This document shows positions 1-64,000 of a stretch of 64,000 nucleotides of DNA, one piece after another. The translations under genes and the position numbers were made by a program. This DNA comes from Chloroflexota bacterium (GTDB lineage Bacteria > Chloroflexota > Anaerolineae > Anaerolineales > Villigracilaceae): NCBI GenBank assembly GCA_021414245.1, contig JAIOOU010000003.1:778825-842824 (forward strand), given 5' to 3'. Numbering within the stretch: position 1 is the stretch's first letter; every line of letters starts with the position of its first letter. The notes under the pieces are model-generated. The model saw nothing but the letters and a program-made list of their open reading frames with translations. It ran no database searches and was not told the DNA's origin.

Positions 1-1
1 T

Positions 2-45147: not shown

Positions 45148-45148
45148 A

Positions 45149-48429: not shown

Positions 48430-48535
48430 TTTGCCTCCAATAAAAAATAAAGTCATCAAAATCTAAAACTGTGTTTCCTCTTCAACTTAACGATATTACG
48501 AAACTTGCGATTCAAAGATGGTTTTGCTTTTGGTT

Positions 48536-48691
48536 GCCCAACGGTTTGCGTTTGCGCAGCATCCCCGAGGCGAAGCCGAGAGGGATAACCTGCGTGTGGG
48601 AGATCCAACCAGCGAAACGGAAAAATGCTTTCGCTTGGACAATGCTTTTTTGCACGGCCCACCGCCAAGTCCGTTGCACGAATTGTTAGCC
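48536..48691 (-). repeat. attC site 8 (156 bp)
   Basis: GCCCAAC and GTTAGCC boxes. One arm carries the inserted CCCCGAGGCGAAGCCGAGAGGG module; the centre differs from both main types. Confidence 0.8.
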
Positions 48692-48734
48692 ATCGTTTCC
48701 CTATTCTGCGCTTCCAATCGATAGATTAACAACA

Positions 48735-49118
48735 TCAAATCGTAGGTTGCCATATACCCTTGACATAGGCAGCCTCTGTCTCCCCTGTCCAAGGCGGCAT
48801 GGTGATGCAAATGAATTTCAATTCCACGTTTGAAACATTTCGGTATTGAAATGCTGTTCCTACTGGAATATCGATTGACATGCCTGGGACAAGAACGGTG
48901 ACCCCGCTCTCTTTGCCGTCATCTCTCCAAATCTCACCATGTCCCTCCAGCACATACCAGAATTCACTCACTGTTGCGTGAACAGTCGCTTTATTTATTT
49001 GATGCGGAGAAACTGTACTATGGATCATGCCCCCCATTTTGTTATCCATGAGGATGCGAATATCTGCACCCGCTGGCGATTTCCTATCGGGTTTCTCTGG
49101 AAGCATTATTGTCTTCAT
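48735..49118 (-). CDS. Cupin-domain protein (cassette gene)
   Basis: 127 aa, one cupin barrel: HSTVSPHQINKATVHATVSEFWYVLEGHGEIWRDDG (motif 1, with His residues) and VPGMSIDIPVGTAFQYRN (motif 2, metal ligand changed to Gln). ATG 49118 (MKTIMLPEK) has GAGGAGAG upstream. Function unknown; likely small-molecule binding or isomerase activity. Confidence 0.85.
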   Translation of the reverse strand: MKTIMLPEKPDRKSPAGADIRILMDNKMGGMIHSTVSPHQINKATVHATVSEFWYVLEGHGEIWRDDGKESGVTVLVPGMSIDIPVGTAFQYRNVSNVELKFICITMPPWTGETEAAYVKGIWQPTI

Positions 49119-49247
49119 ACTTCTCTCCTCAAATTTCAACTTCTTTTTTGAAGTATCAGTTCAACACATTCAAGACATACGAGTAAACGAAACGCTGACT
49201 CACGAAGGGGACGATGACAATACGCAATTGCTATGGACCAAGAAGAT

Positions 49248-49349
49248 GGCTAACGGTTTGCGTTTGCGCTGGGGTGGGCGTGGACTCTACGTGGGAGCTG
49301 GAAAAACTCAAAGCCATAAAAAATCCTTGAAAACCGCGCTTTGTTGGGT
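49248..49349 (-). repeat. attC site 9 (102 bp)
   Basis: GGCTAAC and GTTGGGT boxes; arm CGGTTTGCGTTTGCGCTGG; centre GTGGACTCTACGTGGGAGC...AAAACTCAAAGCC (type b). Shortened second arm. Confidence 0.8.
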
Positions 49350-49376
49350 GTTTATAGCATTTTAAAAATTATATCC

Positions 49377-49757
49377 TTATTCAGGTGGTGGTGTTCGAAA
49401 GACAAAATCTCCAAATCCTAAAGAAAGCAAGAAATATATTGTTGCCGTCGACAACACTAGCATATTTCCTGCGCCATTTATTATTTCAAAAATTGACACA
49501 GCAAACCCAACGATCGTTGTAACGAAAATTCCTTTTATCATTGCGTTAAGTGCAATACCAGATTTTGCTGATCGTCCATACCAGCACATTGCGGCAATGC
49601 CTAATAGATTTGCACCAAAATAACGAGGAACCCATTGATTGGATGGTTCAAGAACAATATTGTATATTGACAAAAGCCTTTCTGGAAATAACAGATATGC
49701 CAGTCCAAAGAGAAGAGAGCCTATCGCAGTAACGGTCATTGTAAGAAATAATCTCAT
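49377..49757 (-). CDS. Small membrane protein with four predicted helices (cassette gene)
   Basis: 126 aa. Hydrophobic segments about residues 4-24, 42-62, 68-90 and 98-118. AAGGAGAATCCCC before ATG 49757 fixes the start (MRLFLTMTV). Family not recognised. Confidence 0.7.
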   Translation of the reverse strand: MRLFLTMTVTAIGSLLFGLAYLLFPERLLSIYNIVLEPSNQWVPRYFGANLLGIAAMCWYGRSAKSGIALNAMIKGIFVTTIVGFAVSIFEIINGAGNMLVLSTATIYFLLSLGFGDFVFRTPPPE

Positions 49758-49842
49758 GGGGATTCTCCTTTTCATAAACAATTTGTTCAACCTTGAAAGC
49801 AAGATGTAAATAGCTGTTAAAAATTACTTTTGCCACGAAAAC

Positions 49843-50033
49843 GCCCAACGGTTTGCGTCATTGTCCCCGAGGCGAAGCCGAGAGGGATACTTGCTGGTGG
49901 GCGGGCGTGGACTCTGCTTGGGAGCAGGAAAAACCCGAAGCCAGAAAACTGCTTGTAAACCGCGCAGAATCCCCAGCGTCCAGCAGCTCGCCCCGGCGAG
50001 TGTAACGAGCACGGGGTGCACGCTTTGTTAGGT
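49843..50033 (-). repeat. attC site 10 (191 bp, longest)
   Basis: GCCCAAC and GTTAGGT boxes, type b centre, and two inserts: CCCCGAGGCGAAGCCGAGAGGG in one arm and GCTCGCCCCGGCGAGTG plus AACGAGCACGGGG in the other. Confidence 0.88.
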
Positions 50034-50528
50034 GGCGTTTTTGGCTAAGAAACTTTCAATGTCTTGAATAAATTTCAGAGCCTCTTGCTCTATTTGTTTT
50101 GTCAAAGCGTCTAAATCACTAAAATCTGGATTATCTGCCAAAATATGTTCTACAACAGAGTCTACACCTTTCACGGGTTCTACAACTTTGTATTTGTCCC
50201 ATCTGCTTGTATTGATGATTTTCCAGTATTTTGCAAGAACCTGCTTGTTTTTCCCAGACAGCCAAATCTCAAATCTAAATGCGTCGTAAAGAAACACAAT
50301 TGCAATCTTCAAGTCTCTATCTTTCAATGATTTAGGCAAGATAGAAAAGTAGGTCATGTCCATAAACCCATTGTAGAGACTTCCAGGTGCAGAATAGTCA
50401 GGATATTTGTTTGAGAAGTGATTCTTCAAACTCATCATATATTCCATTAATCCTTGATAGGCTTTTTGAATTGACCCCTTTTCTAACTGTTTTCTAAATT
50501 CGACCATATTTTCTTGCAATGATTTCAT
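50028..50528 (-). CDS. Conserved alpha/beta protein, unknown (DUF7000-like) (cassette gene)
   Basis: 166 aa. NMVEFRKQLEKGSIQKAYQGLMEYMMSLKNHFSNKYPDY at the N-terminus and a predicted helical C-terminus. I associate this with a DUF of small soluble proteins (possibly DUF7000), no known function. GGAGATAAAC before ATG 50528. The stop TAA is inside GTTAGGT of its attC. Confidence 0.7.
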   Translation of the reverse strand: MKSLQENMVEFRKQLEKGSIQKAYQGLMEYMMSLKNHFSNKYPDYSAPGSLYNGFMDMTYFSILPKSLKDRDLKIAIVFLYDAFRFEIWLSGKNKQVLAKYWKIINTSRWDKYKVVEPVKGVDSVVEHILADNPDFSDLDALTKQIEQEALKFIQDIESFLAKNAT

Positions 50529-50645
50529 GTTTATCTCCAGCACTCTTCTATGAATTGTTGAAAACAAAAAATCTCATTTTTATTTCACCCAAACTACAAG
50601 GAAAATCGCTTATCTTTCAGGAAGTATATTCGGCAATGAAAAGCC

Positions 50646-50768
50646 ACCTAACGGTTTGCGTCATTGTCCCCGAGGCGAAGCCGAGAGGGATGCCTGCGTG
50701 TGGGCGGGCGTGGAAAATGCTTCAAAATCGGGCAGAATCCCACCCGCCAAGTGCACGCTTTGTTGGGC
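50646..50768 (-). repeat. attC site 11 (123 bp)
   Basis: ACCTAAC and GTTGGGC boxes; carries the CCCCGAGGCGAAGCCGAGAGGG insert; the centre is reduced to GGAAAATGCTTCAAAATC. Confidence 0.88.
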
Positions 50769-50876
50769 AGTTTTGTTGTGCAAGATTCATCGCCTTAGTA
50801 AGACACCGACTCGAACTTTACAATATTTTACAAGTAACAAATACTTTAGCAAACATCAAAAAAAGCAACAACGAAT

Positions 50877-51311
50877 TTACGGAGTAGATGCGGCGGAGTC
50901 GGTTTGCTCTGCTGGGATTGGGAATAAGGCTATCATATCGTCAGGAATCTGGATGGGTCTGCCAGTGGTCAGTTCAACGAAAACCCATTGTGTTTCGCCT
51001 TTGGCTATGACCTTGCCATCCGACTTGCGGATAAACTCATATCTGCGCTTCGCTCGCACACGTTTCCATTCTGCTACCCATGTGCTAACTTCAATTTCAT
51101 CCCCGAGAAAAGCAGAAGTGAGATATTCAATCCGATGTTCACGTATAAACCATCCAGTATTTTCAGGTAGTTTAGCGCCCACTGCCTCTCCGTGGCGAAT
51201 GGCTGCGTCTTGAATCCATTGGACGTAGATGACGTTGTTGACATGCCCGTACTCATCAATTGCAGATTGGGGAACAGTGAGACTGTAAGTGGAGATGGAA
51301 AGAGGTGGCAT
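50877..51311 (-). CDS. Acyl-CoA thioesterase, hotdog fold (YbgC/4HBT-like) (cassette gene)
   Basis: 144 aa. DEYGHVNNVIYVQWIQDAA is the 4-hydroxybenzoyl-CoA thioesterase-type active-site helix with its Asp, and IEVSTWVAEWKRVRAKRRYEFIRKSDGKVIAKGETQWVFV the following sheet. Hydrolyses some acyl thioester. ATG at 51311. 108 bp lie between its stop and its attC. Confidence 0.88.
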   Translation of the reverse strand: MPPLSISTYSLTVPQSAIDEYGHVNNVIYVQWIQDAAIRHGEAVGAKLPENTGWFIREHRIEYLTSAFLGDEIEVSTWVAEWKRVRAKRRYEFIRKSDGKVIAKGETQWVFVELTTGRPIQIPDDMIALFPIPAEQTDSAASTP

Positions 51312-51353
51312 GATTTACGTTTACTCCTAAATTATTTGATTTTGCCAAGAACT

Positions 51354-51488
51354 GCCCAACGGTTTACGTTACTTGCTGGTGGGCGGGCGTGGACTCTGTT
51401 TGGGAGCAGAAAAAACTCGAAGCGAAGAAAATGCTTGTAAACCGCGCACGCGAAGCGTCCCACACGTCGGGTACAAGCTTTGTTAGCC
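51354..51488 (-). repeat. attC site 12 (135 bp)
   Basis: GCCCAAC and GTTAGCC boxes; type b centre (CTCTGTTTGGGAGCAG); CACGCGAAGCGTCC insert in the second arm, as in site 5. Confidence 0.88.
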
Positions 51489-51499
51489 CGCGTTGATTA

Positions 51500-52294
51500 T
51501 TAATTCACAAACTCCATCACTTCACGATTGAAACGGTCTGCTGCTTCGATGGGTACTAAGTGACCGACGCCAGCAAAGGTGGAGAGTTTTGCGTCAGGGA
51601 TGTGCTCCGCTATATATTGTCCATTTTCATAAGGGATTAGCGGGTCGGTGTTGCCATGAATAACCAGAGTGGGCGCGGTAATTTGAGTGAGTCTGTGACT
51701 AACCCCTTCACGCTTCATTACCGCGCGCAACTGCCGTTTATATGATTCAATCGCCATCGGTTTGGACTGGGCATTATGCACCAGTTGATCCAAGTCTTCA
51801 GGATGATCTAGCATGTAACCTTGTCTCGTAAGCAGAGGAAAGATGCGGCGTACGCGCGGTTCAATTTCTTCACTATCTTTTCGTAGTAGCAACGCACGTA
51901 TCTCTGGCGCGGCATGAACGGATGTCGGTCCCCCCGCGGAAGTTGACACTAAGATCAGTTTTTGAACGAGAGCAGGGTTGCGTATTGCTAGTTCAAGAGC
52001 AATAAAACCACCCATTGACCATCCCACGACATGCACTGAACCAAGATTGAGATTCTGGAGAACGCCTGCAACGTCATCCGCCATTTCTGCAATGGTATAG
52101 GGCGCACTGCCTAGCGTGCTATCGCCTGCGTCGCGATTGTCCAAGTTGATGACATGCAACATTTGAGAGAGTGGTTCTATCTGCTTCCACCAACTAAGAC
52201 GTGTTTCGCCAAGACCCGCTATAAGCAATAAAGGCTGCCCCTTTCCGTGTTCGTCGTAGTAAAGCGTATGTGATCCAATTTTGGCAGTAGGCAT
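51500..52294 (-). CDS. Alpha/beta hydrolase (cassette gene)
   Basis: 264 aa. Nucleophile elbow GWSMGG (near residue 97), oxyanion region LLIAGLGETRLSWW, late Asp in HGNTDPLIPYENG and His in GVGHLVPIEA complete the triad. Similar to esterases and 3-oxoadipate enol-lactonase-like enzymes; substrate unknown. GGAGATTTAT before ATG 52294 fixes the start four codons inside the track ORF. Confidence 0.92.
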   Translation of the reverse strand: MPTAKIGSHTLYYDEHGKGQPLLLIAGLGETRLSWWKQIEPLSQMLHVINLDNRDAGDSTLGSAPYTIAEMADDVAGVLQNLNLGSVHVVGWSMGGFIALELAIRNPALVQKLILVSTSAGGPTSVHAAPEIRALLLRKDSEEIEPRVRRIFPLLTRQGYMLDHPEDLDQLVHNAQSKPMAIESYKRQLRAVMKREGVSHRLTQITAPTLVIHGNTDPLIPYENGQYIAEHIPDAKLSTFAGVGHLVPIEAADRFNREVMEFVN

Positions 52295-52320
52295 ATAAAT
52301 CTCCAATAATTAGGTGAGCG

Positions 52321-52339
52321 GGCTAACGGTTTGTTAGCC
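52321..52339 (-). repeat. Collapsed 19-bp attC (site 13)
   Basis: GGCTAACGGTTTGTTAGCC: both outer boxes remain, separated by 5 nt, and extend to GCGG...CCGC outside. All inner arms are lost. The stop codon of the EamA gene is inside it. Confidence 0.75.
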
Positions 52340-53245
52340 CGCCGCTCTATTCAGGCGTGACCGCCATAACTGAACAATTAATGTGCCAAATCCGACAAGA
52401 ACTATACCAAGAATTTGTCTTGAGTTTAAAGGCTCATCTAAGAAGAACCATGCCAGTATTGCAATCTGCGGCAACATCGTACTATTTATAATACTCGACT
52501 CAACAGCGGTAAGTGTTTTCAAGGTGCTGTTCCACAATGTAAATGCAACTGCCGTATTGACAACCGCAAGCCAGCCTATGATTAGCCATTGCATAAGGTT
52601 AAGATTGCCAAAACCTTGCGTCGTTGCTCCGATAATCAATAAAAGTAAACCACCAATGCCCATGCTTATAGCCGTAACAAGAATAGGCGATAAACCACTT
52701 TGATGATTGATTCGTCTTCCCAATAAGGATGACCCTGAATTTGCCAAAACGCCGATAAGCGCAATCACTAAACCAAGAACTTGTCCTGTGGGTATATTCA
52801 ATGGAAGAAAGTAAATAATTGCACCTACTGCCGATAAAAAGATACCGCCCCATTGAATTATTGAAGGTGACTCGTCCTTAAGAAAACTGCTCGACAATGC
52901 GACAAAAATCGGTGAAAAATTAAGCAGTAAACTCAAGGTGGCGGCAGGTAAAAAAGAAAGACTTACAAACTGCGCTCCCTGTGTCAAGGTGTAAAACACA
53001 AATCCAAGCAAAGCAAGTTGCCCCCAAGTGGCACGAGAAAAAGTGCGTAACACATTTCGGTGAGTTGGATTGATTAGAATAAATGGAATCAAGCAAAGGA
53101 AGGCAATGAAATAACGCAAGCCTGCGAAAGTAATGGCGGGTAGGCTGGCTTTTAATCCAACTTTGACAAGCACCCAAGATGTTGACCATAGAAAAGTTAC
53201 AAACAATGCTTGTAGTACGGCTTTTATATGTAACTTTGAGGTCAT
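52334..53245 (-). CDS. EamA/DMT-family exporter (cassette gene)
   Basis: 303 aa with ten predicted membrane helices in two EamA repeats (TFLWSTSWVLVKVGLKASLPAITFAGLRYF in the first; SIINSTMLPQIAILAWFFLDEPLNSRQILGIVLVGFGT ends the second). Drug/metabolite transporter superfamily; probably exports a metabolite. The track ORF runs into the neighbouring attC; ATG 53245 with AAGGAAAA upstream is the real start. With site 13 collapsed, this gene and the hydrolase now behave as one two-gene cassette. Confidence 0.92.
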   Translation of the reverse strand: MTSKLHIKAVLQALFVTFLWSTSWVLVKVGLKASLPAITFAGLRYFIAFLCLIPFILINPTHRNVLRTFSRATWGQLALLGFVFYTLTQGAQFVSLSFLPAATLSLLLNFSPIFVALSSSFLKDESPSIIQWGGIFLSAVGAIIYFLPLNIPTGQVLGLVIALIGVLANSGSSLLGRRINHQSGLSPILVTAISMGIGGLLLLIIGATTQGFGNLNLMQWLIIGWLAVVNTAVAFTLWNSTLKTLTAVESSIINSTMLPQIAILAWFFLDEPLNSRQILGIVLVGFGTLIVQLWRSRLNRAAG

Positions 53246-53308
53246 CAGTTCATTTTCCTTTATTGGTGAAGTACTGATTTGTAATTCATTGATAATTAGC
53301 AAAGAGCG

Positions 53309-53436
53309 GGCTAACGGTTTGCGTGAGCTGCGGCGGGCGGGCGTGGACTCTGCTTGGGAGCAGGAAAAACTTGAAGCGAGGAAAATTCTCGAAAATGCCG
53401 CAGACTCCCACACGTCAGGTGCACGCTTTGTTGGGC
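53309..53436 (-). repeat. attC site 14 (128 bp)
   Basis: GGCTAAC and GTTGGGC boxes; type b centre (CTCTGCTTGGGAGCAGGAAAAACTTGAAGC); arm TCAGGTGCACGCTTT. Confidence 0.9.
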
Positions 53437-53450
53437 CGCTTTTTCAACTG

Positions 53451-54047
53451 CTATTGTCTGGGCTGCCAGCCACTTAGCGGTGCTAGTTGTATCTGCTTCG
53501 AAAGATCATAGGCAGTTGGTAGATCGCTGTCGCTGTACACGAGCACGCGTCCGAACACGAGCACCGAATTGTTCGGTGAAGATATCTGTGTCATGCCGCT
53601 GGGCACCTGTCCTTCCCAGCCGGGGCCGCTCACGAGGTAGTTGCCAGCCTGCGTGCCCGTGGCGCGTTTGCCAACGTAGGCAAAGTTTATATTGGACGAA
53701 GGATTAGTGAACTGCACGCTGTAGTAGCGCCCGGAGAAGTCCGGCACATGCAAGACTTGCGGCCCTTTTGAGAGATCGAGCCAGCCAGCCGTCATGAGCG
53801 TGTCGCGGTTCACACCAGTAGTCGCCAATTTTGAGGCCGAGGCGGGCGCATGGAGGGGATCTGCAAAAAGCGTTTGGGACTCTGTATAGAGCGTATTAAC
53901 CGGAATGGGGCCGTCGCCGAATCCTTTAACGAGAATTGCTCTTTTGAATACGGACAGCAGCAGGCGTGGCCAAAAATAGGTGAACAGGAACCATGATGCG
54001 ACCATGAACGAGCCAAATAAAAGCAAATGCTCCATCTGAGTCATCAT
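53451..54047 (-). CDS. DUF1254-domain protein (cassette gene)
   Basis: 198 aa. One N-terminal membrane helix (about residues 7-27), then a DUF1254 domain (DGPIPVNTLYTESQTLFADP, late HVPDFSGRYYSVQFTNPSSNINFAYVG). Its ATG overlaps the stop of the upstream DUF1214 gene by 4 bp. The two domains are usually fused in one polypeptide; here they are separate, coupled genes in a single cassette. Confidence 0.85.
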   Translation of the reverse strand: MMTQMEHLLLFGSFMVASWFLFTYFWPRLLLSVFKRAILVKGFGDGPIPVNTLYTESQTLFADPLHAPASASKLATTGVNRDTLMTAGWLDLSKGPQVLHVPDFSGRYYSVQFTNPSSNINFAYVGKRATGTQAGNYLVSGPGWEGQVPSGMTQISSPNNSVLVFGRVLVYSDSDLPTAYDLSKQIQLAPLSGWQPRQ

Positions 54048-54721
54048 GATATCTCGACAATCGGCGGTACCGTATACTCGCCATTGAGAATGGCCGCGCC
54101 AGGTATATACACACGCAGCCAGAGGATGAAGTTACCCGCAGGCGCGGGCAGCCAGTTGGATTCATGACCGGTCGGCGTGGTGTTCTGAAGGTAAATGTCA
54201 ACGGAGCCGTCGGTGTTCGGCACGAGGCCGGAGCGATCGCTCACGCTATACCGATTAAGCGGATTCGGCACAAAGTGATTTTTCGCATCGCCCATCGTCA
54301 GCGACCAGAATGCATTGTTCGGCGGAAGACCACCCGATGGGAAGTGTATGATGTAGTCGTGCTTTCCGGAGAGCGTATGACCCGCGCCGTCTCCGGACGT
54401 TGTCCAATACATCGCTTCTTGCGGTACGTTTACCGGGCCGGGAAATAGTTGGGCGTGCGCGGCTCGCAACAACATGCCGTTGCCGGGCTCGCCTAATCCG
54501 AACATGGTGATCCAGCCGTTGACTTTCGTGGCCTTGATCCTCGCATAAATTTGAGATATGACAAAAGCCAGCGCGAAGCCAATGAGAATGCCCTGCACCA
54601 CGTCTTTACGTACAGTTCTCAAAGCGGTAAAAAAGCGGCCAAAAAAGAATGAATTAATGAAGAAAAAGCCGCATATCACGCCGTTGAGCACGGTCAGAAA
54701 AGTAGATGTTCTATTGTTCAT
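54044..54721 (-). CDS. DUF1214-domain protein (cassette gene)
   Basis: 225 aa. Two hydrophobic segments in the first 65 residues and a DUF1214 domain at the C-terminus (NAFWSLTMGDAKNHFVPNPLNRYSVSDRS...ESNWLPAPAGNFILWLRVYIPGAAILNGEYTVPPI). Function of the domain is unknown. Gene order is DUF1214 then DUF1254, the reverse of the usual domain order. Confidence 0.88.
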   Translation of the reverse strand: MNNRTSTFLTVLNGVICGFFFINSFFFGRFFTALRTVRKDVVQGILIGFALAFVISQIYARIKATKVNGWITMFGLGEPGNGMLLRAAHAQLFPGPVNVPQEAMYWTTSGDGAGHTLSGKHDYIIHFPSGGLPPNNAFWSLTMGDAKNHFVPNPLNRYSVSDRSGLVPNTDGSVDIYLQNTTPTGHESNWLPAPAGNFILWLRVYIPGAAILNGEYTVPPIVEIS

Positions 54722-54751
54722 ATAATTTATCTTATCACTTTAGGCCTAGCT

Positions 54752-54880
54752 GCCCAACGGTTTGCGTTACTGGCGCTGGGGTGGGCGTGGACTCTGCTTG
54801 GGAGCAGAGAAAAACTCGAAGCCAGAAAATGCCTGAAAATGCGGCAGACTCGCCAGCGTCCAGTGCACGCGGTGTTGGGC
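54752..54880 (-). repeat. attC site 15 (129 bp)
   Basis: GCCCAAC and GTTGGGC boxes; type b centre; second arm CAGTGCACGCGGT. Confidence 0.9.
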
Positions 54881-54950
54881 GTTCGTCTGCAAGCACTCAT
54901 GCTAGATATCAGATCACATCATAATCGCGCTAAACACCAGTTCTTTTGTC

Positions 54951-55592
54951 CTATCCGAAGTTTTGTTTGAACATATTGTGCGTTTCTTCCTTAGTGACCG
55001 TTGAATACTCAGGGTTTCCTTTAGGTCTATAGACTTGTATTATCGTTCCGTTCGGCTTGACGCTTGATTCGACAAGTTGGAGTGCAAAATCATTGCCAAC
55101 ATCGGGAAATAATCGGATTCCTTGACCCAAAATTACAGGGAAGATAATCAGGTTCATCTCATCAATCAGATGGTTTTGGAGCAACCAACGGATGAGTTGG
55201 CCACTGCCGTGAACTTGTAGTTCACCCCCCGCCTGTGCTCGGAGATTCGCAATTGCAACTGCAAAATCTCCTGATAAGATTTTTGTGTTATCCCATTCTG
55301 GATTGTGTAAGGTGCTCGACACCACATATTTCGGTTTTGTGTGCAGTGCTGCGGCAATTGGACTTTTGCTTGTTTTGGGCGCGGCTCCCCACGAATAGGC
55401 AAAGACGTCGTAGGTCTTACGCCCGAACAGGAAAGCATCCGCGCGTTGAAAGACTTGGTCGACGAACTCCCCTGATTCACTATCAAAGTGAGCCCATCCA
55501 CCACGGGTGAAGCCTCTGTCGTCTTCGTCTGGACCTCCAGGGCTCTGCATGACACCATCAAGCGAAAGTTGAGTGGTAGTTGTCAGTTTCAT
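54951..55592 (-). CDS. RibD/dihydrofolate-reductase-like protein (second cassette copy of the family)
   Basis: 213 aa. TTTTQLSLDGVMQSPGGPDEDD at the N-terminus, RADAFLFGRKTYDVFAYSW, and ELQVHGSGQLIRWLLQNHLIDEMNLIIFPVILGQGIRLFPD are the RibD_C/DHFR-like signatures. Only distantly similar to the one at 45737, so independent acquisition is more likely than duplication. ATG 55592 follows AGGAGACTTTATAT. 70 bp lie between its stop and the attC. Confidence 0.9.
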   Translation of the reverse strand: MKLTTTTQLSLDGVMQSPGGPDEDDRGFTRGGWAHFDSESGEFVDQVFQRADAFLFGRKTYDVFAYSWGAAPKTSKSPIAAALHTKPKYVVSSTLHNPEWDNTKILSGDFAVAIANLRAQAGGELQVHGSGQLIRWLLQNHLIDEMNLIIFPVILGQGIRLFPDVGNDFALQLVESSVKPNGTIIQVYRPKGNPEYSTVTKEETHNMFKQNFG

Positions 55593-55613
55593 ATATAAAG
55601 TCTCCTCTCAAAC

Positions 55614-55743
55614 GCCCAACGGTTTGCGTTACTTGCTGGTGGGCGGGTGTGGACAATGCTCATTATAGTGGGAAATGCCTAAGCCAGAAAAATGCCTGAA
55701 AATGGCGCAGAATCCCACCCGTCAAGTGCACGCTTTGTTAGGC
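55614..55743 (-). repeat. attC site 16 (130 bp)
   Basis: GCCCAAC and GTTAGGC boxes; type a centre (GGACAATGCTCATTATAGTGG). Canonical site of the proximal half. Confidence 0.93.
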
Positions 55744-56337
55744 ACGGTTTTTGGATGCCTTACCTTTTTTCAACCAGAACATAAGCGCTTTTGCGTCGCC
55801 AGGGCTAATTGTATGAAAAGACATTTCGGCATTTTCATAATTTTGCAAAACGAAATTTAGAATATCTGCCGCCGTTTTTACTATTGTATCAATTTGTTCT
55901 TTGGAGACACCTTGCAACGGATATTCCAAGGGCTTGATTGCAGAATTCAAATCTCTGTGACCTACTTTTTTATTTCTTCGTTGTCTCACTGGCTTACAAA
56001 TTTTCTGAAATTCAGTTACAAGGCTTTCTATTCCTTCAACTTTAATACAATTCTTGGCTAGAGTCGCAAACGATAAGTTTTCTTGTCCAACAGATTTAGG
56101 CGGGTCACTTAAACGACAAATTGCCATTGTTATATCGTTTTGAAGTGTTTCCAATATTATATTAAATGACGCTGGCGCAAGTTCTGATAGCAAATCCGTG
56201 TTTTCACTTTTTCCGAACAGTTCTAACCAAAAATCCCATTTATGTTGTAGAGACGCTACATCTTGGCAAAGCCACATAAAAACATCTCGAATGTTTTCTG
56301 GTATTTTTTCGCTATACCCAAAATCGTTTTTTGCCAC
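55738..56337 (-). CDS. HEPN-like protein, AbiU2-related (cassette gene)
   Basis: 199 aa, all-helical prediction. The segment VRQRRNKKVGHRDLN contains an R-N-x4-H arrangement, the active-site pattern of HEPN ribonucleases, and the context (LQNDITMAICRLSDPPKSVGQENLSFATL upstream, long helices around) resembles AbiU2-type proteins from phage-abortive systems. Activity is inferred; no partner nucleotidyltransferase is in the cassette. Stop TAA inside GTTAGGC. Confidence 0.7.
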   Translation of the reverse strand: MAKNDFGYSEKIPENIRDVFMWLCQDVASLQHKWDFWLELFGKSENTDLLSELAPASFNIILETLQNDITMAICRLSDPPKSVGQENLSFATLAKNCIKVEGIESLVTEFQKICKPVRQRRNKKVGHRDLNSAIKPLEYPLQGVSKEQIDTIVKTAADILNFVLQNYENAEMSFHTISPGDAKALMFWLKKGKASKNRA

Positions 56338-56370
56338 GATTTAATCCTTTGATGAGACCAAATGACAAGT

Positions 56371-56500
56371 GCCTAACGGTTTGCGTTACTTGCTGGTGGG
56401 TGGGCGTGGACAATGCTCATTATAGTGGGAAGTGCTGAAGCCAGAAAAATGCTTGAAAAAGCCGCAGAATCCCACCAGTCAAGTGCACGCTTTGTTAGCC
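56371..56500 (-). repeat. attC site 17 (130 bp)
   Basis: GCCTAAC and GTTAGCC boxes; type a centre. Confidence 0.93.
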
Positions 56501-56524
56501 CGCTTCTGATTTTACAATAAGTAA

Positions 56525-57109
56525 TTATTGACCACCACCACTACACCCACCTGGATCAGTACACCCACCACTATCACCACCGCTGTCGCCACTACCATCA
56601 TTACCACCATTGCTACCGCCATTTGGATTTTCATAGGCAGATTTATCAAAAGTAGAGACTTCACTAACGCAAATTTCACTTCCATTCGTATCTTTTGCAA
56701 CTACCTGCCATTGATATTCTCCGCCAGCAACAAAGGCTTCCATGTACCGATCATAAAAAGTTTCGTCAGTTTCAAATGGCACAATTTCACCTGACGGAAG
56801 AATGATATTCAATACGTACTTTCCTACTTCATTCATTGGCGTCCATGAAAAAGTGACTTTGCCAACGGGCGGAATTTCTGAGCCATCAGTAGGTGTAAGT
56901 AAAGTTACACAAGCAATCGGGGTTTTGGTTGCTTCTTCTGTGACAATAGGTTCTTCTGTTGTAATCGGTTCTTGGGTAGTGGGTGCTTCGGTAACAATTT
57001 CTTCTGTTGTCGCAATTTCCACAATTTTATCTTCCTGCGTCGGTGTTGCTGGGGCGCAAGAAACAAGAAGAATACTGATGAAAACGAGAATTGCGACTTT
57101 TGTTTTCAT
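56525..57109 (-). CDS. Lipoprotein with fibronectin-like domain and Gly-rich tail (cassette gene)
   Basis: 194 aa. Signal peptide with lipobox LVSC (Cys about residue 18), a Thr/Glu-rich repeat linker (TTEEPIVTEEAT), a beta domain (LLTPTDGSEIPPVGKVTFSWTPMNEVGKYVL...GGEYQWQVVAKD) of fibronectin-III or Ig style, and a Gly/Ser/Asp tail with two Cys (GGCTDPGGCSGGGQ). Linker style matches the chromosomal lipoproteins of this genome, so the cassette probably arose in a related host. Confidence 0.82.
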   Translation of the reverse strand: MKTKVAILVFISILLVSCAPATPTQEDKIVEIATTEEIVTEAPTTQEPITTEEPIVTEEATKTPIACVTLLTPTDGSEIPPVGKVTFSWTPMNEVGKYVLNIILPSGEIVPFETDETFYDRYMEAFVAGGEYQWQVVAKDTNGSEICVSEVSTFDKSAYENPNGGSNGGNDGSGDSGGDSGGCTDPGGCSGGGQ

Positions 57110-57131
57110 AAACCTATATTTTGCACGGGCG

Positions 57132-57260
57132 GGCTAACGGTTTGCGTTACCTGCGTGTGGGCGGGCGTGGATTCTGTTTGGGAGTAGGAAAAACTCGAAG
57201 CGAAGAAAATGCTTGTAAACCGCGCAGACTCCCACACGTCAGGTGCACGCTTTGTTGGGC
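57132..57260 (-). repeat. attC site 18 (129 bp)
   Basis: GGCTAAC and GTTGGGC boxes; type b centre (ATTCTGTTTGGGAGTAGG). Confidence 0.92.
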
Positions 57261-57353
57261 AACCTGCATGAACGCAAGACTCGATGGCAATTAAAGATAA
57301 CGCCATTTACATGGGTTTGCGCTAAGAAAGTAAAGTCATTAAATTATTTATAA

Positions 57354-57379
57354 AACTCCCCGCGACGCCGCGAGGAGTT
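57354..57379 (-). terminator. Terminator of the small membrane gene in cassette 18
   Basis: On the minus strand AACTCCTCGCG, GCGT loop, CGCGGGGAGTT, then TTATAAAT; 11-bp stem with one G-T pair. Confidence 0.7.
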
Positions 57380-57407
57380 AATAACATATCCGCCAGTGAA
57401 TAGATTC

Positions 57408-57578
57408 TTAGATACCCTTGACCAAAAGACCAAGCACGAGAACAATCAAACCAATAAAAACGATCCAGAATGCGTAAGCAGCAAGAAAGCCCAGAACGCC
57501 AATTTGTCCCAGCAGACCAACCAAACCAAGAACAACAGAAATCCAGAAAGTAACCATTGTTGGGGGGGTAAGTTTCAT
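57408..57578 (-). CDS. 56-aa two-helix membrane protein (cassette gene)
   Basis: MKLTPPTMVTFWISVVLGLVG... with two hydrophobic helices (about residues 8-28 and 33-53). AAGGAGATTTGAA before ATG 57578 decides the start; the longer track ORF is not used. It has its own promoter at 57628-57655 and its own terminator, so it does not depend on the integron promoter. Function unknown. Confidence 0.78.
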   Translation of the reverse strand: MKLTPPTMVTFWISVVLGLVGLLGQIGVLGFLAAYAFWIVFIGLIVLVLGLLVKGI

Positions 57579-57627
57579 TTCAAATCTCCTTATGGTAGAA
57601 AAAGTAACGAATCTGGCGGACATGATA

Positions 57628-57655
57628 TTTATAGCATATATATTTCTATTGTCAA
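57628..57655 (-). promoter_or_regulatory. Cassette-internal promoter, minus strand
   Basis: TTGACA, 16 bp, TATAAA on the minus strand, about 50 bp upstream of the 56-aa membrane gene. Confidence 0.7.
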
Positions 57656-57681
57656 TAACATTGAACCACAAGAATCAATTG

Positions 57682-57711
57682 TTGAAAACACAGCCATTGT
57701 TGTACTATAAT
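57682..57711 (+). promoter_or_regulatory. Cassette-internal promoter, plus strand
   Basis: TTGAAA, 18 bp, TATAAT, 66 bp before ATG 57777 and back-to-back with the minus-strand promoter. Confidence 0.7.
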
Positions 57712-57776
57712 ATGTATGTTAGTGTTCAAATCAATGTCGAGTTTTTTTGGAAGCCCATCTAAACAAGGAGAAAAAA

Positions 57777-57998
57777 ATGGCATACACATTGGATACAAAA
57801 GTTGGTGATATTTTGGATGATACACATGCGTTGGAAGTTTTGGAAAAATATGCTCCAGGTGTTTCAAAGAATCCCATGATTGGTTTAGCAAAAGGAATGA
57901 CTCTAAAGGCGCTCCTTGCCATGCCGCAAGCCAAAGATGCTGGGATTACCGAAGAAATGGTCAAGAAAGTACTGGCGGAGATCAATGCTCGGAAGTAA
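57777..57998 (+). CDS. 73-aa helical protein, DUF1858-like (antisense-oriented cassette gene)
   Basis: The only intact plus-strand gene inside the array. TLDTKVGDILDDTHALEVLEKYAPGVSKNP then MTLKALLAMPQAKDAGITEEMVKKVLAEINA: a small helical domain with the KYxPG...NPM pattern seen in stand-alone proteins and at the C-terminus of some hydrolases, related in style to DUF1858. CAAGGAGAAAAAA precedes ATG 57777. Own promoter and terminator. Function unknown. Confidence 0.78.
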   Translation: MAYTLDTKVGDILDDTHALEVLEKYAPGVSKNPMIGLAKGMTLKALLAMPQAKDAGITEEMVKKVLAEINARK

Positions 57999-58031
57999 TC
58001 CGAACCATCTTTCTTTTCTGTAATTTGTCTG

Positions 58032-58064
58032 AAAGGCGTATGGTCTCCTGACCTACGCCTTTTT
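58032..58064 (+). terminator. Terminator of the 73-aa gene
   Basis: AAAGGCGTA(T)GG and CC(T)ACGCCTTTTT form a hairpin with a T run, 34 bp after the stop. Confidence 0.85.
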
Positions 58065-58105
58065 GATTAGGGTTAGGCTATAAGTTCTGTGTTTTGCACG
58101 GGGTT

Positions 58106-58235
58106 GCCCAACGGTTTGCGTTACCCGCGGGTGGGCGGGACGAGGCAACGCCATTTTGCCGGAACCAACTTGAAGCCACGCAAACTGCCTGAAAACGCGC
58201 AGACTCCCACCCGTCGGGTGCACGCTGTGTTGGGC
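58106..58235 (-). repeat. attC site 19 (130 bp)
   Basis: GCCCAAC and GTTGGGC boxes; centre GGCAACGCCATTTTGCCGG...TTGAAGCCACG, a third variant. Confidence 0.9.
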
Positions 58236-58292
58236 GTTTTTTTCAGAACACAAGACACGCCGCCTTAAAAAGACACTGCCAATTATCGCAGA

Positions 58293-59615
58293 TTATTTCA
58301 ATCCATAATTGTTATAGTAGGTTTCGAATATGTGGCTTGAAAGATAATCAACCACATTTTGGGGAAGTCCATTACCTTCAAACGGCACAGCAGAGCTTGC
58401 CCCGTAGTTGCCATTAAGAATATACTGGATGCCCGCGTTAAGCCTCTGTTGCATTATCATGTCAAGCAGTTTATCAAATGCGCCCGGTTCATCCTGCATG
58501 GCAATAATGGCATCGTTGGCATAATTAACACTCCCGTAATAATGAACTCCACCGTTATTTCCACCGTTTTTATCGTCAAGATTCCAATTATCAGGATTTG
58601 CCGGAGGAATTATGAGCGCCATTGTGTTTTCATGGTTAATAAGCATTCTCTGCAAGCCGTTCAGTCCGTCAGGACCTACTGTATGGGAACCGAACACTAC
58701 CTCGTTGTTAGCTAATGAAACGGAACCGAAGAATATGTCCTCGCGTTGCATCCAATCTAAACCTCCAAACCATATCATAGTTCTTCCGTCTGTATTTTGG
58801 ACAAGCAAGGGAATCACGCTAAATTCCCTATCTTCTATAGGCTGTCCCTGGCTGTTTTTCAGTCCGGTTGCTATTCCGTCAATCATCGCCAAGTATCTAT
58901 AAGGTTCATTTCCTTTAGTAAATCTACCGTTATGTGCATCGGCGTATGTTTCCTGACCTGGGGTGATTTTCAATCTTCCATCAGGTTCACCGTTATAATC
59001 CGCACGGCTCATATCCAGTAGGTAAAAAGTTTCTGGCTCTTTTCTTGAGCCTCGATTTTGCGGGATTAACCAGAAACGGGCGGTTTCAGTATTTCCAGGA
59101 AATACTGTGTCTATTTGAGTCAAAAGCAATCTGTATAAATCTCTGTTCGTAACCATCTCTTGAAGCTGCTTACCAAATGACGTGCGATTCTCCGCATTTA
59201 GGTCCGTAACGATATTTTCTGATTTGAACCAGTAATTTTGTTCTTCATTCCAAATAATGGTGAATGTGTCAGTTGCTTCTGCAGTTACGACGTATGAAAA
59301 GATTGAGTCATTGTATGTGTTAGCCTTAACACTTGTTGCCTCAACTGTCCATTCAGCATCCTTTCCAGTAACGTAATCTTTACCCTTAACCTTACCAGTT
59401 GCAATTTCACCATACTCTTCTTCACCAATGACACCTTTTACAGATTCGTCAATTGCAGGCGGTTCAGGTGTGAACGTAGGTGGTATAGGTGAAGGCGTAA
59501 CAGTGGATGGAACAGTAGTAGGAACAAGGGTAGGGGTGAGGGCGGGAGTACACCCGCTGAACGAAACCGTGAGAAGAACAAATGGAAGGAACGCTGACCG
59601 AATTGTTTTTTTCAT
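58293..59615 (-). CDS. Large lipoprotein, unknown (cassette gene)
   Basis: 440 aa. Signal peptide with lipobox VSFSGC (Cys about 22), Pro/Thr linker (TPTLVPTTVPSTVTPSPIPPTFTPEPP), then a globular part with FTIIWNEEQNYWF and RFWLIPQNRGSRKEPETFYLLDMSRADYNGEPDGRL. Family not recognised. Linker composition is that of Anaerolineae-type lipoproteins. ATG 59615 is chosen since the signal peptide starts there (MKKTIRSAF). Confidence 0.78.
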   Translation of the reverse strand: MKKTIRSAFLPFVLLTVSFSGCTPALTPTLVPTTVPSTVTPSPIPPTFTPEPPAIDESVKGVIGEEEYGEIATGKVKGKDYVTGKDAEWTVEATSVKANTYNDSIFSYVVTAEATDTFTIIWNEEQNYWFKSENIVTDLNAENRTSFGKQLQEMVTNRDLYRLLLTQIDTVFPGNTETARFWLIPQNRGSRKEPETFYLLDMSRADYNGEPDGRLKITPGQETYADAHNGRFTKGNEPYRYLAMIDGIATGLKNSQGQPIEDREFSVIPLLVQNTDGRTMIWFGGLDWMQREDIFFGSVSLANNEVVFGSHTVGPDGLNGLQRMLINHENTMALIIPPANPDNWNLDDKNGGNNGGVHYYGSVNYANDAIIAMQDEPGAFDKLLDMIMQQRLNAGIQYILNGNYGASSAVPFEGNGLPQNVVDYLSSHIFETYYNNYGLK

Positions 59616-59651
59616 GATGTTTTCTTCTTTGTTTTGATTTTGCGACGAAGC

Positions 59652-59781
59652 GCCCAACGGTTTGCGTTACCCGCGCTGGGGGAGGCGGCGGAACGCCGTC
59701 CGACTGGGAAAATGCTGAGGCGTAGAAAACTGCTTGGAATCGCGCCAGAATCCCCAGCGTCGGGTGCACGCTTTGTTGGGC
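59652..59781 (-). repeat. attC site 20 (130 bp)
   Basis: GCCCAAC and GTTGGGC boxes; centre GGCGGAACGCCGTCCGACTGGG, related to site 6. Confidence 0.92.
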
Positions 59782-59791
59782 AACCGTTACC

Positions 59792-60544
59792 TTAAGACAT
59801 TTTATCTCGAAAAGCAAGAGCCTGTTTAAAATTATCTGTGCAAATGCGAGGTATGCCAAACTTTGCAACGGTCATTAATGCTTGTTCATCATTTACATCC
59901 CAAACATGAATTTCGATACCTTGATTTCGCAGGGCATTGACAACTGTTTCAGATAATTGTGTGGGGTGTAAATGTACGGCTCTTGCATGGGCAAGACGGG
60001 AATGATGAATTGCTTGATATTGGACTACATCTAACTTCATCCAACTTTCTGAACGTGGAAACAACAAATCAACAATTAAACCTGGGCAGATTTCTCGAAC
60101 CGATAATAGCAAGGCAGGTTCGTAAGAAGTAATTTCAAACGAATTCCAGAAATTCTTGAATTTGTTTAAGACACCACCAATAATTTCTGGTGCTTCAGGC
60201 TCTGGTCCCTTAATTTCTATTTCAAACCCAATTTTTCCGCCAAACATTTCCAAGATTTCGGAAAGCGTGGAAATGCACCCTTCTTTAGCGGCTGGATTAT
60301 TTTTACAAAACACCTTTACATCACGCAATTGCTCTAACGTAAAATCAAAAATTGCTCCTGACGCAGATGTATTTTCTTGAAGGTAAAAGTAATGATAAAC
60401 GACTGGAATTTTGTCGGATGTTAATCTGACATCGAGTTCGATTGCGTCTGCCCCAAGTTCAACGGCTCGTTGAAATGAAGCAATTGTATTTTCTGGGGCT
60501 TCTGTCGGAATACCCCGATGTGCAACAATCTCAAAATGTTTCAT
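59792..60544 (-). CDS. Glycerophosphodiester phosphodiesterase family protein (cassette gene)
   Basis: 250 aa TIM-barrel enzyme. VAHRGIPTEAPENTIASFQRAVELGADAIELDVRLTSDKIPVVYH carries the catalytic first His, the Glu and Asp metal ligands (ELDV) and the region where the second His stands (here VVYHYF rather than VVxHD). FEIEIKGPEPEAPE supplies another acidic cluster. Hydrolyses glycerophosphodiesters to glycerol 3-phosphate and an alcohol. Cytosolic, no signal peptide. Confidence 0.9.
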   Translation of the reverse strand: MKHFEIVAHRGIPTEAPENTIASFQRAVELGADAIELDVRLTSDKIPVVYHYFYLQENTSASGAIFDFTLEQLRDVKVFCKNNPAAKEGCISTLSEILEMFGGKIGFEIEIKGPEPEAPEIIGGVLNKFKNFWNSFEITSYEPALLLSVREICPGLIVDLLFPRSESWMKLDVVQYQAIHHSRLAHARAVHLHPTQLSETVVNALRNQGIEIHVWDVNDEQALMTVAKFGIPRICTDNFKQALAFRDKMS

Positions 60545-60561
60545 TTATCACTCGACAGGTT

Positions 60562-60691
60562 GCCCAACGGTTTGCGTTACTTGCTGGTGGGCGGGCGTGG
60601 ATAATGCTCATTATAGTGGGAAATGCCGAAGCCAGAAAAATGTTTGAAAATGCCGCAGAATCCCACCAGTCAAGTGCACGCTTTGTTGGGC
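60562..60691 (-). repeat. attC site 21 (130 bp)
   Basis: GCCCAAC and GTTGGGC boxes; type a centre. Confidence 0.93.
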
Positions 60692-60720
60692 AGATGGTTT
60701 GGGGTACCGATACATGGATG

Positions 60721-61194
60721 CTACATTATGTTTGGATACATCTTCCTAAGCCTTTGCAAGTTAAGATCCCTTACCTCCTCTTCAAGTTTTGCAAAGTCTT
60801 CACAGGCTAAGAGTTTAACCAATTCACTAAAATGATCCCCCAATAATCTACGGAGATCACTTAAGTTTTTGTCTGCATCGTATCCATCGAATCTTGATGG
60901 TGTAACAAAAGATTCGTTTCCTTGACTAAAGTCGATGAGCAATCTTAGATCTAGGAAATGCTCAAGATTGAAGGGGTGCGCGGAAGCCCAAGGTGGCCCA
61001 ATAACTGCCGAAATTGAACCTCGATCTTGAATGAATTTAATAATGCACTGTTCTGACCTTAAGACCACGACCCAGTTGCCGAAGGCCTTCTTATCAACAG
61101 CGCTATCTTCTAGTCGAAAGCCATCGCCGAGAAATTCTGAAAAGTGCTTTCTTATCAATTGAACGCTGTCATTAATATTTTGTATATCGCTCAT
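60721..61194 (-). CDS. Hypothetical protein, 157 aa (cassette gene)
   Basis: ATG 61194 (MSDIQNINDSVQ) follows GAGGTAGA; the upstream extension in the track is dropped. Mixed alpha/beta: FGNWVVVLRSEQCIIKFIQDRGSISAVIGPP suggests a small sheet, and the C-terminus is helical and charged. Resembles stand-alone immunity-style proteins in shape only; not recognised. Confidence 0.65.
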   Translation of the reverse strand: MSDIQNINDSVQLIRKHFSEFLGDGFRLEDSAVDKKAFGNWVVVLRSEQCIIKFIQDRGSISAVIGPPWASAHPFNLEHFLDLRLLIDFSQGNESFVTPSRFDGYDADKNLSDLRRLLGDHFSELVKLLACEDFAKLEEEVRDLNLQRLRKMYPNIM

Positions 61195-61372
61195 TCTACC
61201 TCTACTGTTCGGGCTCAATTCGTTTGATCGACTTAAGATAATACGGTGAAGACGCAACGTGAAACGAGTGAAGTATTTGTAGTTTCTCAGGGGCGGAGCT
61301 TTTCTCGCGCCGTTTGTATGTCATGCGTTTTTCAAGATCACTCATGGATAGCTCAATACACCTACTGCATCT

Positions 61373-61503
61373 GCCCAACGGTATAGCTTTAGCGGCGACG
61401 GGGCGGAGTGTGGATTCTGCTTGGGAGCAAAAAAAGCTCAAAGCCAGAAAAACTGCCTGAAATCGCGCAGACTCCCCGTTGTCCGCTGCAAGCATTGTTA
61501 GGC
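61373..61503 (-). repeat. attC site 22 (131 bp)
   Basis: GCCCAAC and GTTAGGC boxes; type b centre (ATTCTGCTTGGGAGCAA). Confidence 0.9.
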
Positions 61504-61867
61504 CGCATGGCTGGCAGGAAAACTAACAGACGAGGAAAATGTTTTTGGGACGGGGCTCTAAACACTGCTGGGAAATGATTACCGCCCAAAAACCTTGCCG
61601 ATATTATGACACGATTGCGAGCAAAACGCCACAACCAAAAAGGCTTAGCCAACGAAATCAACCTGGCGATCACGATTGCTCATGTGCAAAAAATGCTAAC
61701 AGGCAGACCAAGTTATTGAAGAAGAAAAAACCAACAGACTAAAAAAGCTAACGAGAAAGAAAGACATGGCAGAAAAAACGATTGCCGGGAAAACCTGATT
61801 GCGAGCAAAGGCAAGGAACCAAAAATTAACAAGTGAGACTGTTTTCAAAACAAAAGAAAAACATGCG
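61504..61867. other. Cassette 22, no intact gene
   Basis: 364 bp between two attC sites with no ORF of coding quality on the minus strand. The plus strand is purine-rich and holds a broken HTH-like reading frame, listed separately. Confidence 0.6.
61606..61798 (+). pseudogene. Possible frameshifted small HTH (XRE-like) gene
   Basis: ATG 61606 opens 37 codons: RLRAKRHNQKGLANEINLAITIAHVQKMLTGRPSY, then a stop. LANEINLA...HVQKMLTGRP fits a Cro/CI-type helix-turn-helix. A one-base shift allows the frame to continue EEEKTNRLKKLTRKKDMAEK to a stop at 61796. Short and by-eye only. Confidence 0.3.
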
Positions 61868-61997
61868 GCCTAACGGTTTGCGTTACTTGCTGGTGGGCGG
61901 GCGTGGACAATGCTCATTATAGTGGGAAATGCTGAAGCTAGAAAAATGCTTGAAAATGCCGCTGAATCCCACCAGTCAAGTGCACGCTGTGTTGGGC
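61868..61997 (-). repeat. attC site 23 (130 bp)
   Basis: GCCTAAC and GTTGGGC boxes; type a centre. Confidence 0.93.
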
Positions 61998-62029
61998 GCT
62001 TATTGCCATTAAGAACTATTTGGGGCATT

Positions 62030-62803
62030 TCATTCGCCAAAGATACTCACAAAATCGCGAAAAACATTAGATGGCGGTTCTGTTAATTCATAAGCGCTTC
62101 CAGATATTGAGTGTAACGCTCGAATTTCATTAAGCTTTTCATTGATAGGAATACCAAAAATCCACCTGGTTTCAATAGTAATTAGTTTTGCTTGATACAA
62201 GAGACGGCAGGCTAGAGCTGGGTCTTTTTTGATTGCTAACTCGGCAAGCCAGTGAAATGCCCAGGCAACACCTTTTGGAAAGTTTTTCTCACTACTTAAT
62301 TGATATATATGCAGGAGAATTTTCTTTGCTCCTTCAACATTGTTCGATTCTTTTAAATGATCGGCTACATAACCTGCATACCAGATTTCCTTTGGCCAGA
62401 TACCGCGCTGCCTATTAATTTCATGCAATTCATGTGTCCATGCCCAGCGTCGCTGCATGTTGTATTCTATGGGCAAAAGGGCTTCTAAAAAACCGCAGTA
62501 ATCACCTTGCCGATCATCTACTTTTGCCTGGGATTGCAATTTTAAGAGCTTGTGTTTCCATTTCTCCATATTCTTGCCACGGTAAAGTTCTAGTAACCGT
62601 GAGGTCGCGTCTTTGGCCAGTACAGATTGAAGATCGATTCGTTCCTGTGTTTCTGCCCAATCCCAAATTTCTAAGACTTCATTCCGCAGTTTTCGACGGT
62701 TTTCATCTAAATTAAATGGCGCTTCCCAATCTTCAAATTCTTTGTCGGCTAATAAAGATTGCGCCTTTGCAAGCATCTCTTGATTTGTTGTAGCGGTGTT
62801 CAT
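62030..62803 (-). CDS. Hypothetical helical protein, 257 aa (cassette gene)
   Basis: Predicted all-helical with TPR-like spacing of aromatic and Ala/Leu residues (AKKILLHIYQLSSEKNFPKGVAWAFHWLAELAI; LACRLLYQAKLITIE). No catalytic motif seen and not recognised. ATG 62803 follows no strong Shine-Dalgarno. Stop 33 bp from its attC. Confidence 0.7.
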   Translation of the reverse strand: MNTATTNQEMLAKAQSLLADKEFEDWEAPFNLDENRRKLRNEVLEIWDWAETQERIDLQSVLAKDATSRLLELYRGKNMEKWKHKLLKLQSQAKVDDRQGDYCGFLEALLPIEYNMQRRWAWTHELHEINRQRGIWPKEIWYAGYVADHLKESNNVEGAKKILLHIYQLSSEKNFPKGVAWAFHWLAELAIKKDPALACRLLYQAKLITIETRWIFGIPINEKLNEIRALHSISGSAYELTEPPSNVFRDFVSIFGE

Positions 62804-62849
62804 AGTCTAATTGACACAACCCTTATTGTATTCGTAATCGAACTAAGGC

Positions 62850-62979
62850 GCCCAACGGTTTGCGTTACTTGCTGGTGGGTGGGCGTGGACAATGCTCATT
62901 ATAGTGGTAAATGCCGAAGCCAGAAGAATGTTTGAAAATGCGCCAGAATCCCACCAGTCAAGTGCACGCTTTGTTGGGC
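62850..62979 (-). repeat. attC site 24 (130 bp)
   Basis: GCCCAAC and GTTGGGC boxes; type a centre. Confidence 0.93.
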
Positions 62980-63132
62980 AACCTGCTGGCTTACCAGAAC
63001 GCTGGCGAAAAAAGACACCACCGCAAACATGACAAGATTTTAGATGCAACTTTTCTTTTTACCAAAACTAAAAGACACAACCAGCGAAAACGCCTGCTGT
63101 AAAAGCGCAAAAATAAAGCAAAGCCAAAAGAA

Positions 63133-63438
63133 TTACGAATCGGTTTCTTTTGTAGAATCAGATTGTGAATTACTATTTTTTTTCTTTGTAAAGAAGTAAA
63201 CCACTGCTCCAATTATGGCGACTGGTATTCCGCATATCGCACAAGATGACATTCCCATAATCGTTTGAATTAACATACTGCCTGACCCAGGGTCAAGGTA
63301 TTTCAAAACATTTGACCCTATTATGGGAACAGTTATTAATATGCAGATAAGAAGAATCTTGAACAATTGCAACTTAATATTGTTCACATTTGTTTTTGCT
63401 TGATTGTAATTTCTAATTCCAAACAACTTGGCGTTCAT
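63133..63438 (-). CDS. Small two-helix membrane protein, 101 aa (cassette gene)
   Basis: Helices about residues 23-43 (LFKILLICILITVPIIGS) and 62-84 (AICGIPVAIIGAVVYFF), joined by YLDPGSGSMLIQTIMGM, a DPGSGS motif found in several small bacterial membrane proteins, and a Lys/Ser tail. AAAGGAGTTTTT before ATG 63438 sets the start; the track start is a TTG 16 codons upstream. Function unknown. Confidence 0.72.
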   Translation of the reverse strand: MNAKLFGIRNYNQAKTNVNNIKLQLFKILLICILITVPIIGSNVLKYLDPGSGSMLIQTIMGMSSCAICGIPVAIIGAVVYFFTKKKNSNSQSDSTKETDS

Positions 63439-63561
63439 AAAAACTCCTTTTTGATTTTGTGCTTTCTTCAACAAGAGCGCAAGCAACTATTAGGCTTTTA
63501 ATGCTCAATCTCAAAAACTATACTTGTAAATCAAATACGGTTTTGCCTTTGCTCTTGGGTT

Positions 63562-63691
63562 GCCCAACGGTTTGCGTTACTTGCTGGTGGGCGGGTGTGG
63601 ACAATGCTCATTATAGTGGGAAATGCCGAAGCCAGAAAAATGCCTGAAAATGCCGCAGAATCCCACCAGTCAAGTGCACGCTGTGTTAGGC
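63562..63691 (-). repeat. attC site 25 (130 bp)
   Basis: GCCCAAC and GTTAGGC boxes; type a centre. Last complete site before the window ends. Confidence 0.93.
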
Positions 63692-63796
63692 CACCGACAT
63701 TGAACGCCAGACTCGCCACCTGAAAAAAGAAACCGCCGCTAAAGTTGATGAAATTATTGCACGAACTCCCGACTTTGGCAACAACTAAAAAAGAAT

Positions 63797-64000
63797 ATGA
63801 CTGACCAGAAGATTGCTAAACCTGACATCGCCGAGATTCGATAATACTTACGAAACCGGCTTGAACAATTAAAACCTGATGGACCCAAAACATTGCCAAG
63901 CATGGGAGGCTAAATGGCTTGCAAGACACACTGACTTATTGGAACAAAGCATTTGCGCGGCAAGTGCGGACGAGCGAGAGACCCGCTGAAGATTTCGTGA
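63797..64000 (+). pseudogene. Broken plus-strand gene fragment in last, incomplete cassette
   Basis: ATG 63797 opens MTDQKIAKPDIAEIR, then TAA, and the frame resumes YLRNRLEQLKPDGPKTLP to another stop. A shifted frame later reads LNGLQDTLTYWNKAFARQ to the edge. The pieces look coding but are broken by a stop and a shift. Just upstream (63692-63789) another short open plus-strand stretch ends DEIIARTPDFGNN. No minus-strand gene is seen here. Confidence 0.3.

Follow-up and report, generated by a model that had tools for sequence, protein, structure and literature searches.

Sedentary chromosomal integrons, as described from Vibrio and Xanthomonas, carry an integrase gene (intI) that faces away from the attI site and its cassettes, a Pc-like promoter, and an array whose attC sites form a shared host-type family and degenerate toward the distal end. 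Clusters of attC sites that have no adjacent intI are referred to as CALINs (PMC9024848). In Xanthomonas, integrase-less clusters occupy recurrent positions in genomes that also possess an intI locus, and the passages considered describe no attI at those clusters (PMC12444791). Cassettes are, furthermore, found at chromosomal places away from intI at the attG sites, which, according to PMC12901181 (citing Loot et al. 2024), diverge from attI. The array analysed here, from an Anaerolineales (Chloroflexota) bacterium, shares with the Vibrio and Xanthomonas integrons all of the features listed above and differs in having several additional attI-like sites, each with cassettes of its own, at other places in the chromosome. 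As an integron it is unremarkable; what is unusual is the dispersal of attI sites that lack an integrase.

The window, by which we mean the whole 64,000-nucleotide stretch analysed, comprises positions 778825-842824 of contig C6 in a genome of 17 contigs and 3.87 Mb, and its base 64000 is the last base of that contig (length 842824). A strict-box regular expression for attC recovered five sites only, and a covariance model trained on eight attC sites was used instead. The model returned 19 matches (E < 0.001; sites outside the training set included) in the interval 43.6-63.7 kb. Every one of them is on the minus strand, as are the array genes. The features of the array and its left flank are as follows:

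43607..64000, minus strand: integron cassette array, proximal end at the right, cut at the end of C6 (attC model matches, contig end)
63692..64000, minus strand: truncated cassette of the attC at 63562, entering the assembly gap (sequence, length of C6)
63562..63691, minus strand: attC, the most proximal in the window (148.8 bits; arms)
62850..62979, minus strand: attC (149.6 bits)
61868..61997, minus strand: attC (142.4 bits)
61373..61503, minus strand: attC, second subtype (97% similar to the one at C11:1-129)
61373..61870, minus strand: ORF-poor cassette with its attC (similarity to the first cassette of contig C11)
60562..60691, minus strand: attC (149.9 bits)
59652..59781, minus strand: attC (125.6 bits)
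58106..58235, minus strand: attC (133.2 bits)
57132..57260, minus strand: attC outside the training set (103.2 bits)
56371..56500, minus strand: attC outside the training set (138 bits)
55614..55743, minus strand: attC outside the training set (139.5 bits)
54752..54880, minus strand: attC outside the training set (109.5 bits)
53309..53436, minus strand: attC outside the training set (91.9 bits)
51354..51488, minus strand: attC, distal and diverged (71 bits)
49877..49997, minus strand: attC, distal and diverged (54.2 bits)
46378..46518, minus strand: attC, distal and diverged (52.4 bits)
43607..43692, minus strand: attC, the most distal recognisable (28.6 bits, E 1e-5)
35358..36851, plus strand: core gene for an amidase, left of the array, whose homologue in genome G007 adjoins genes right of intI on C11, favouring a C6-C11 join

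In an attC site that is recombined on its bottom strand, the 5' arm, read in gene orientation, has two bases more than its partner, in keeping with the role of extrahelical bases (PMC2727003). The initial annotation had quoted such an asymmetry near the right edge, and the sites at 62850-62979 and 63562-63691 do read GCGTGCACTTGACTGGTGGG against GCGT-TACTTG-CTGGTGGG. Of the 12 attC sites between 53.3 and 64 kb, 11 show the same G+A asymmetry, as do sites outside the model's training (55614, 56371, 54752 and 57132); the sites combine inverted R and L boxes with asymmetric extra bases, as integron attC sites do. In those folds that produce the canonical stem, the central spacer proposed at the same time (AAA opposite GGTTT) stays unpaired. 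DNA folding of both strands did not separate them: apart from 54752, no site showed an energy difference above 2.2 kcal/mol. Near-equal energies decide nothing, and folding energy was rejected as a test of polarity, which therefore rests on the arm asymmetry, the orientation of attC sites and cassette ORFs, and the location of intI. These agree with the polarity that had been read from the minus-strand genes: attC sites and cassette ORFs lie on the minus strand, and intI is found on the far side, facing away. The suggestion that the sites near 64000 are the most uniform survives in part. Clear degeneration is confined to the far-distal sites (43-51 kb), but the proximal sites are not unique, in that those at 55614 and 56371 are equally similar (94-97%), those at 57-60 kb are mixed, and those at 61373 and at the start of C11 belong to the other subtype.

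From this polarity, an integrase gene, attI and a Pc promoter had been predicted beyond the right edge. An intact intI, an attI and a Pc-like promoter are present on contig C11 with the polarity that the array predicts, and synteny sets C11 beside that edge. The intI gene (C11:623-1639, plus strand) encodes 338 amino acids without an internal stop and faces away from the array. In a profile search its product scores 445.8 bits with TIGR02249, against a cut-off of 265, which marks it as an integron-type tyrosine recombinase, and its residues 28-337 align with IntI4 of structure 2a3v, the closest solved relative (E 2e-87). It is the only IntI of the genome, and its relatives assign the organism to Anaerolineales within the Chloroflexota. 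An intI to the left of 41.8 kb would have contradicted the polarity; an integrase-family search of C6 found none, since the sole match on that contig is no relative of IntI and lies outside the window, approximately 280 kb to its left.

C11 opens with an attC (1-129, minus strand, the orientation of the window array) and an ORF-poor cassette. This first cassette (L008:1-498), which lies beside attI, is 94% identical over 498 bases to window positions 61373-61870. The attI site (493-571) is located between the first cassette and intI and ends in CATAGTTAGGC; its crossover, GTTAGGC, fits GTTRRRY. Its architecture is common to 15 relatives, such that upstream of 16 intI genes, this one included, a TATAAT box is followed by a palindrome and then by TAGTT at the crossover. 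The palindrome takes the form TTATACAG..CTGTATAA, and a second palindrome usually accompanies it in the intI-linked sites of relatives. The candidate Pc, TTGCCT-17-TATAAT, matches the consensus at 10 of 12 positions and is directed into the array; an exact TATAAT occurs at all 12 of 12 intI-linked attI sites. A second attI type (CCGCCTAAA..TTTAGG..) was observed upstream of more distant intI genes (L050, L052, L056, L059 and L061).

Physical linkage to intI on C11 extends to one attC and its cassette, the window array being linked through synteny. The right end of C11 and the left end of C16 also bear attC sites, and two arrangements are possible: C6 may run into the start of C11 or, alternatively, may join the far end of a reversed C11, where an attI-like site lacks intI, which would render the window array a CALIN and assign intI to the C16 array. 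The attC orientations at both ends of C11 allow either join, and arrays readily invert or are misassembled, yet the flanking genes tie C6 to the start of C11. In G007:C29, the homologue of the amidase (window 35358-36851) adjoins the genes of C11:1668-6674, and G008:C89 joins window 34292-34816 to C11:11223-12173; G008:C271 and G004:C25, in turn, join the far (right) end of C11 to C16, with order and strands matching at both ends. Further evidence against the reversed join is that the first cassette beside intI is the 94% copy of a C6-array cassette described above. An orthologue search of relatives with C11:14398-15837 did not place it next to C6. The opposite arrangement could also be read if C11 had been inverted between its two array ends, but the independent synteny joins oppose this, and we consider the reversed join improbable. 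The synteny joins indicate the contig order C6-C11-C16, in plus orientation, and support a placement in which the start of C11 would follow the right edge of the window across an unsequenced gap. We put at roughly 0.9 the probability that the array is part of a complete sedentary chromosomal integron with its IntI. The initial annotation had noted that a missing intI would make the locus a CALIN; with intI on C11, joined by synteny, the array most probably falls outside that class. In a side observation, the first ~120 bases of C16 (L124:1-120) stand where the 5' arm of an attC would be and do not resemble the array, possibly as a contig-end artefact.

By analogy with known integrons, recombination by IntI would take place between double-stranded attI and the bottom strand of attC in its folded form; new cassettes would then enter at the right, and Pc would transcribe the cassettes nearest to it.

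Every other attC cluster of this genome, five in all (L217, L123, L141, L216 and L218), opens at an attI-like site without intI:

C11:62556-62631: orphan attI-like site, complete, with a Pc-like promoter
C11, ~89.2 kb: orphan attI-like site resembling the second attI type, for example L059
C14, ~270 kb: orphan attI-like site resembling the second attI type, for example L059
C14, ~314.5 kb: orphan attI-like site with one palindrome and TATAAT
C15:21133: orphan attI-like site with one palindrome

For the two C14 sites and the 89.2-kb site on C11, the likeness to attI comes from reading the sequence; an attI model gave weak scores at the C14 sites (21.0 and 16.5 bits) and no match at the 89.2-kb site. 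The clusters on C11 (89.2 and 62.6 kb), C14 and C15 have attC without adjacent intI, as CALINs do, although three clusters of this genome contain a single attC, below the usual CALIN threshold of two.

The attI model, trained on 17 attI sites linked to intI, was applied to 57 genomes of the same genus, and IntI was searched for in the same set. Under strict filters, which make the figures lower bounds, at least 73 attI sites (at least 41.6 bits) occur in at least 28 of the 57 genomes. Among the matches listed, 14 of the 73 have intI or a remnant of it within 400 bases on the expected side and 59 do not. Most of the 57 genomes contain one intI or none. G040 and G061 have one each, together with four or five attI sites among the matches listed, while G004, G029, G043 and G060 gave no IntI match and have three to six each, again among those listed. 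Within the same list, 49 of the 57 orphan sites examined have at least 900 bases downstream; attC is found there in 36 of these 49 and attC of the wrong orientation in none. An exact TATAAT is present at 42 of the 57. G001 and G009 gave short matches to the C-terminal end of IntI, which were considered as possible fragments but set aside because they lie at contig ends.

The clusters of this genome other than the window array thus resemble CALINs in their attC sites and lack of an adjacent intI, but differ in opening at attI-like sites, which across the genus mostly have TATAAT, and in that some of the loci are common to several species. IntegronFinder does not detect attI outside class 1 (PMC9024848), and orphan attI sites would therefore not have shown up in such surveys. 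A search of the open-access literature for orphan or multiple attI returned nothing relevant, an absence that is no proof of novelty.

The most likely reading is that integron platforms spread round the chromosome and that intI disappeared from them, whereas attI and in many cases Pc were retained. The odds are about even that the remaining IntI can still use these sites in trans. We accordingly give an even chance to a distributed integron, genus-wide, in which one IntI would serve dispersed attI-Pc platforms in trans, capture and expression would take place at several conserved loci per genome, and many CALINs would be working satellites and not debris.

Could the missing intI genes simply reflect fragmented, incomplete metagenome assemblies? 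Several orphans do sit close to the end of a contig, as at G012:C42, and draft genomes inflate the number of CALINs (PMC9024848). For most orphans, however, the 1.5-2.5 kb assembled on the side where intI would be expected contains other genes but no intI; moreover, G040 carries linked and orphan attI on a single 736-kb contig, and G024 two orphan attI sites and a distant intI on a single contig of 4.74 Mb, which makes an artefact very unlikely. Similarly remote is the view that the clusters are cassettes at chance attG sites with an incidental likeness to attI. Insertion at chromosomal attG sites is established, as PMC12901181 relates (citing Loot et al. 2024), but whereas attG sites diverge from attI, the orphan sites are attI by sequence: an 80-base architecture, reaching beyond the short core, is shared with intI-linked attI at E values down to 1e-15.

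A more serious competitor, to which we assign a little under an even chance, holds that the orphan sites are dead leftovers of separate integrons after the loss of intI, at which nothing happens now. Remnants of intI do persist beside orphans (the C-terminal 47 amino acids at G008:C281, part of the N-terminus at G021:C10 and an internal fragment at G030:C53), and one shared locus has intI in G027:C72 and lacks it in G029:C36. These cases show at least some orphans to be integrons minus intI. Against a general decay, many orphans are as conserved as intI-linked sites (80.9, 79.6, 77.0 and 75.7 bits, versus 60-88 bits), and TATAAT has been kept at the proportion of orphans given above. Orthologous orphan loci also carry different first cassettes, both at the 62.6-kb site on C11 with G004:C25 and G040:C3b, and at G003:C112 with G004:C22. 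Such differences fit either trans activity or independent losses of intI after cassette divergence, which the data do not separate. Finally, attI sites match within a genome more closely than between orthologous loci. Among the matches listed, 23 of 62 attI sites have their nearest neighbour in their own genome, where a permutation test that shuffles genome labels and ignores kinship expects 2.7, and the attI of G004:C25 is 80% like that of G004:C38 and only 51-55% like its orthologues. For attC, 15 nearest neighbours fall within the genome against 3.9 expected, a weak sign of within-genome cassette traffic since attC types are shared genus-wide.

Orphan attI sites bear on the open question of how CALINs originate and whether they still work, and they make service in trans directly testable. 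They also include a locus at which one species has intI and another lacks it (G027:C72 and G029:C36). If true, such service would give an integron several expression sites per genome instead of one. Standard integron software has no attI model outside class 1 (PMC9024848), and the one built here supplies such a sequence handle.

Two further observations were made. Near-identical attI copies occur within single genomes (G022 on C5, C7 and C31; G009 on C99 and C54; G061 on C68 and C8), their flanks diverging at varying points 80-140 bases upstream. Separately, G001:C103 (L223) and G046:C396 (L331) encode a second tyrosine recombinase, approximately 32% like IntI, on the cassette side of attI; across 1.2 kb, the two loci share 76% identity.
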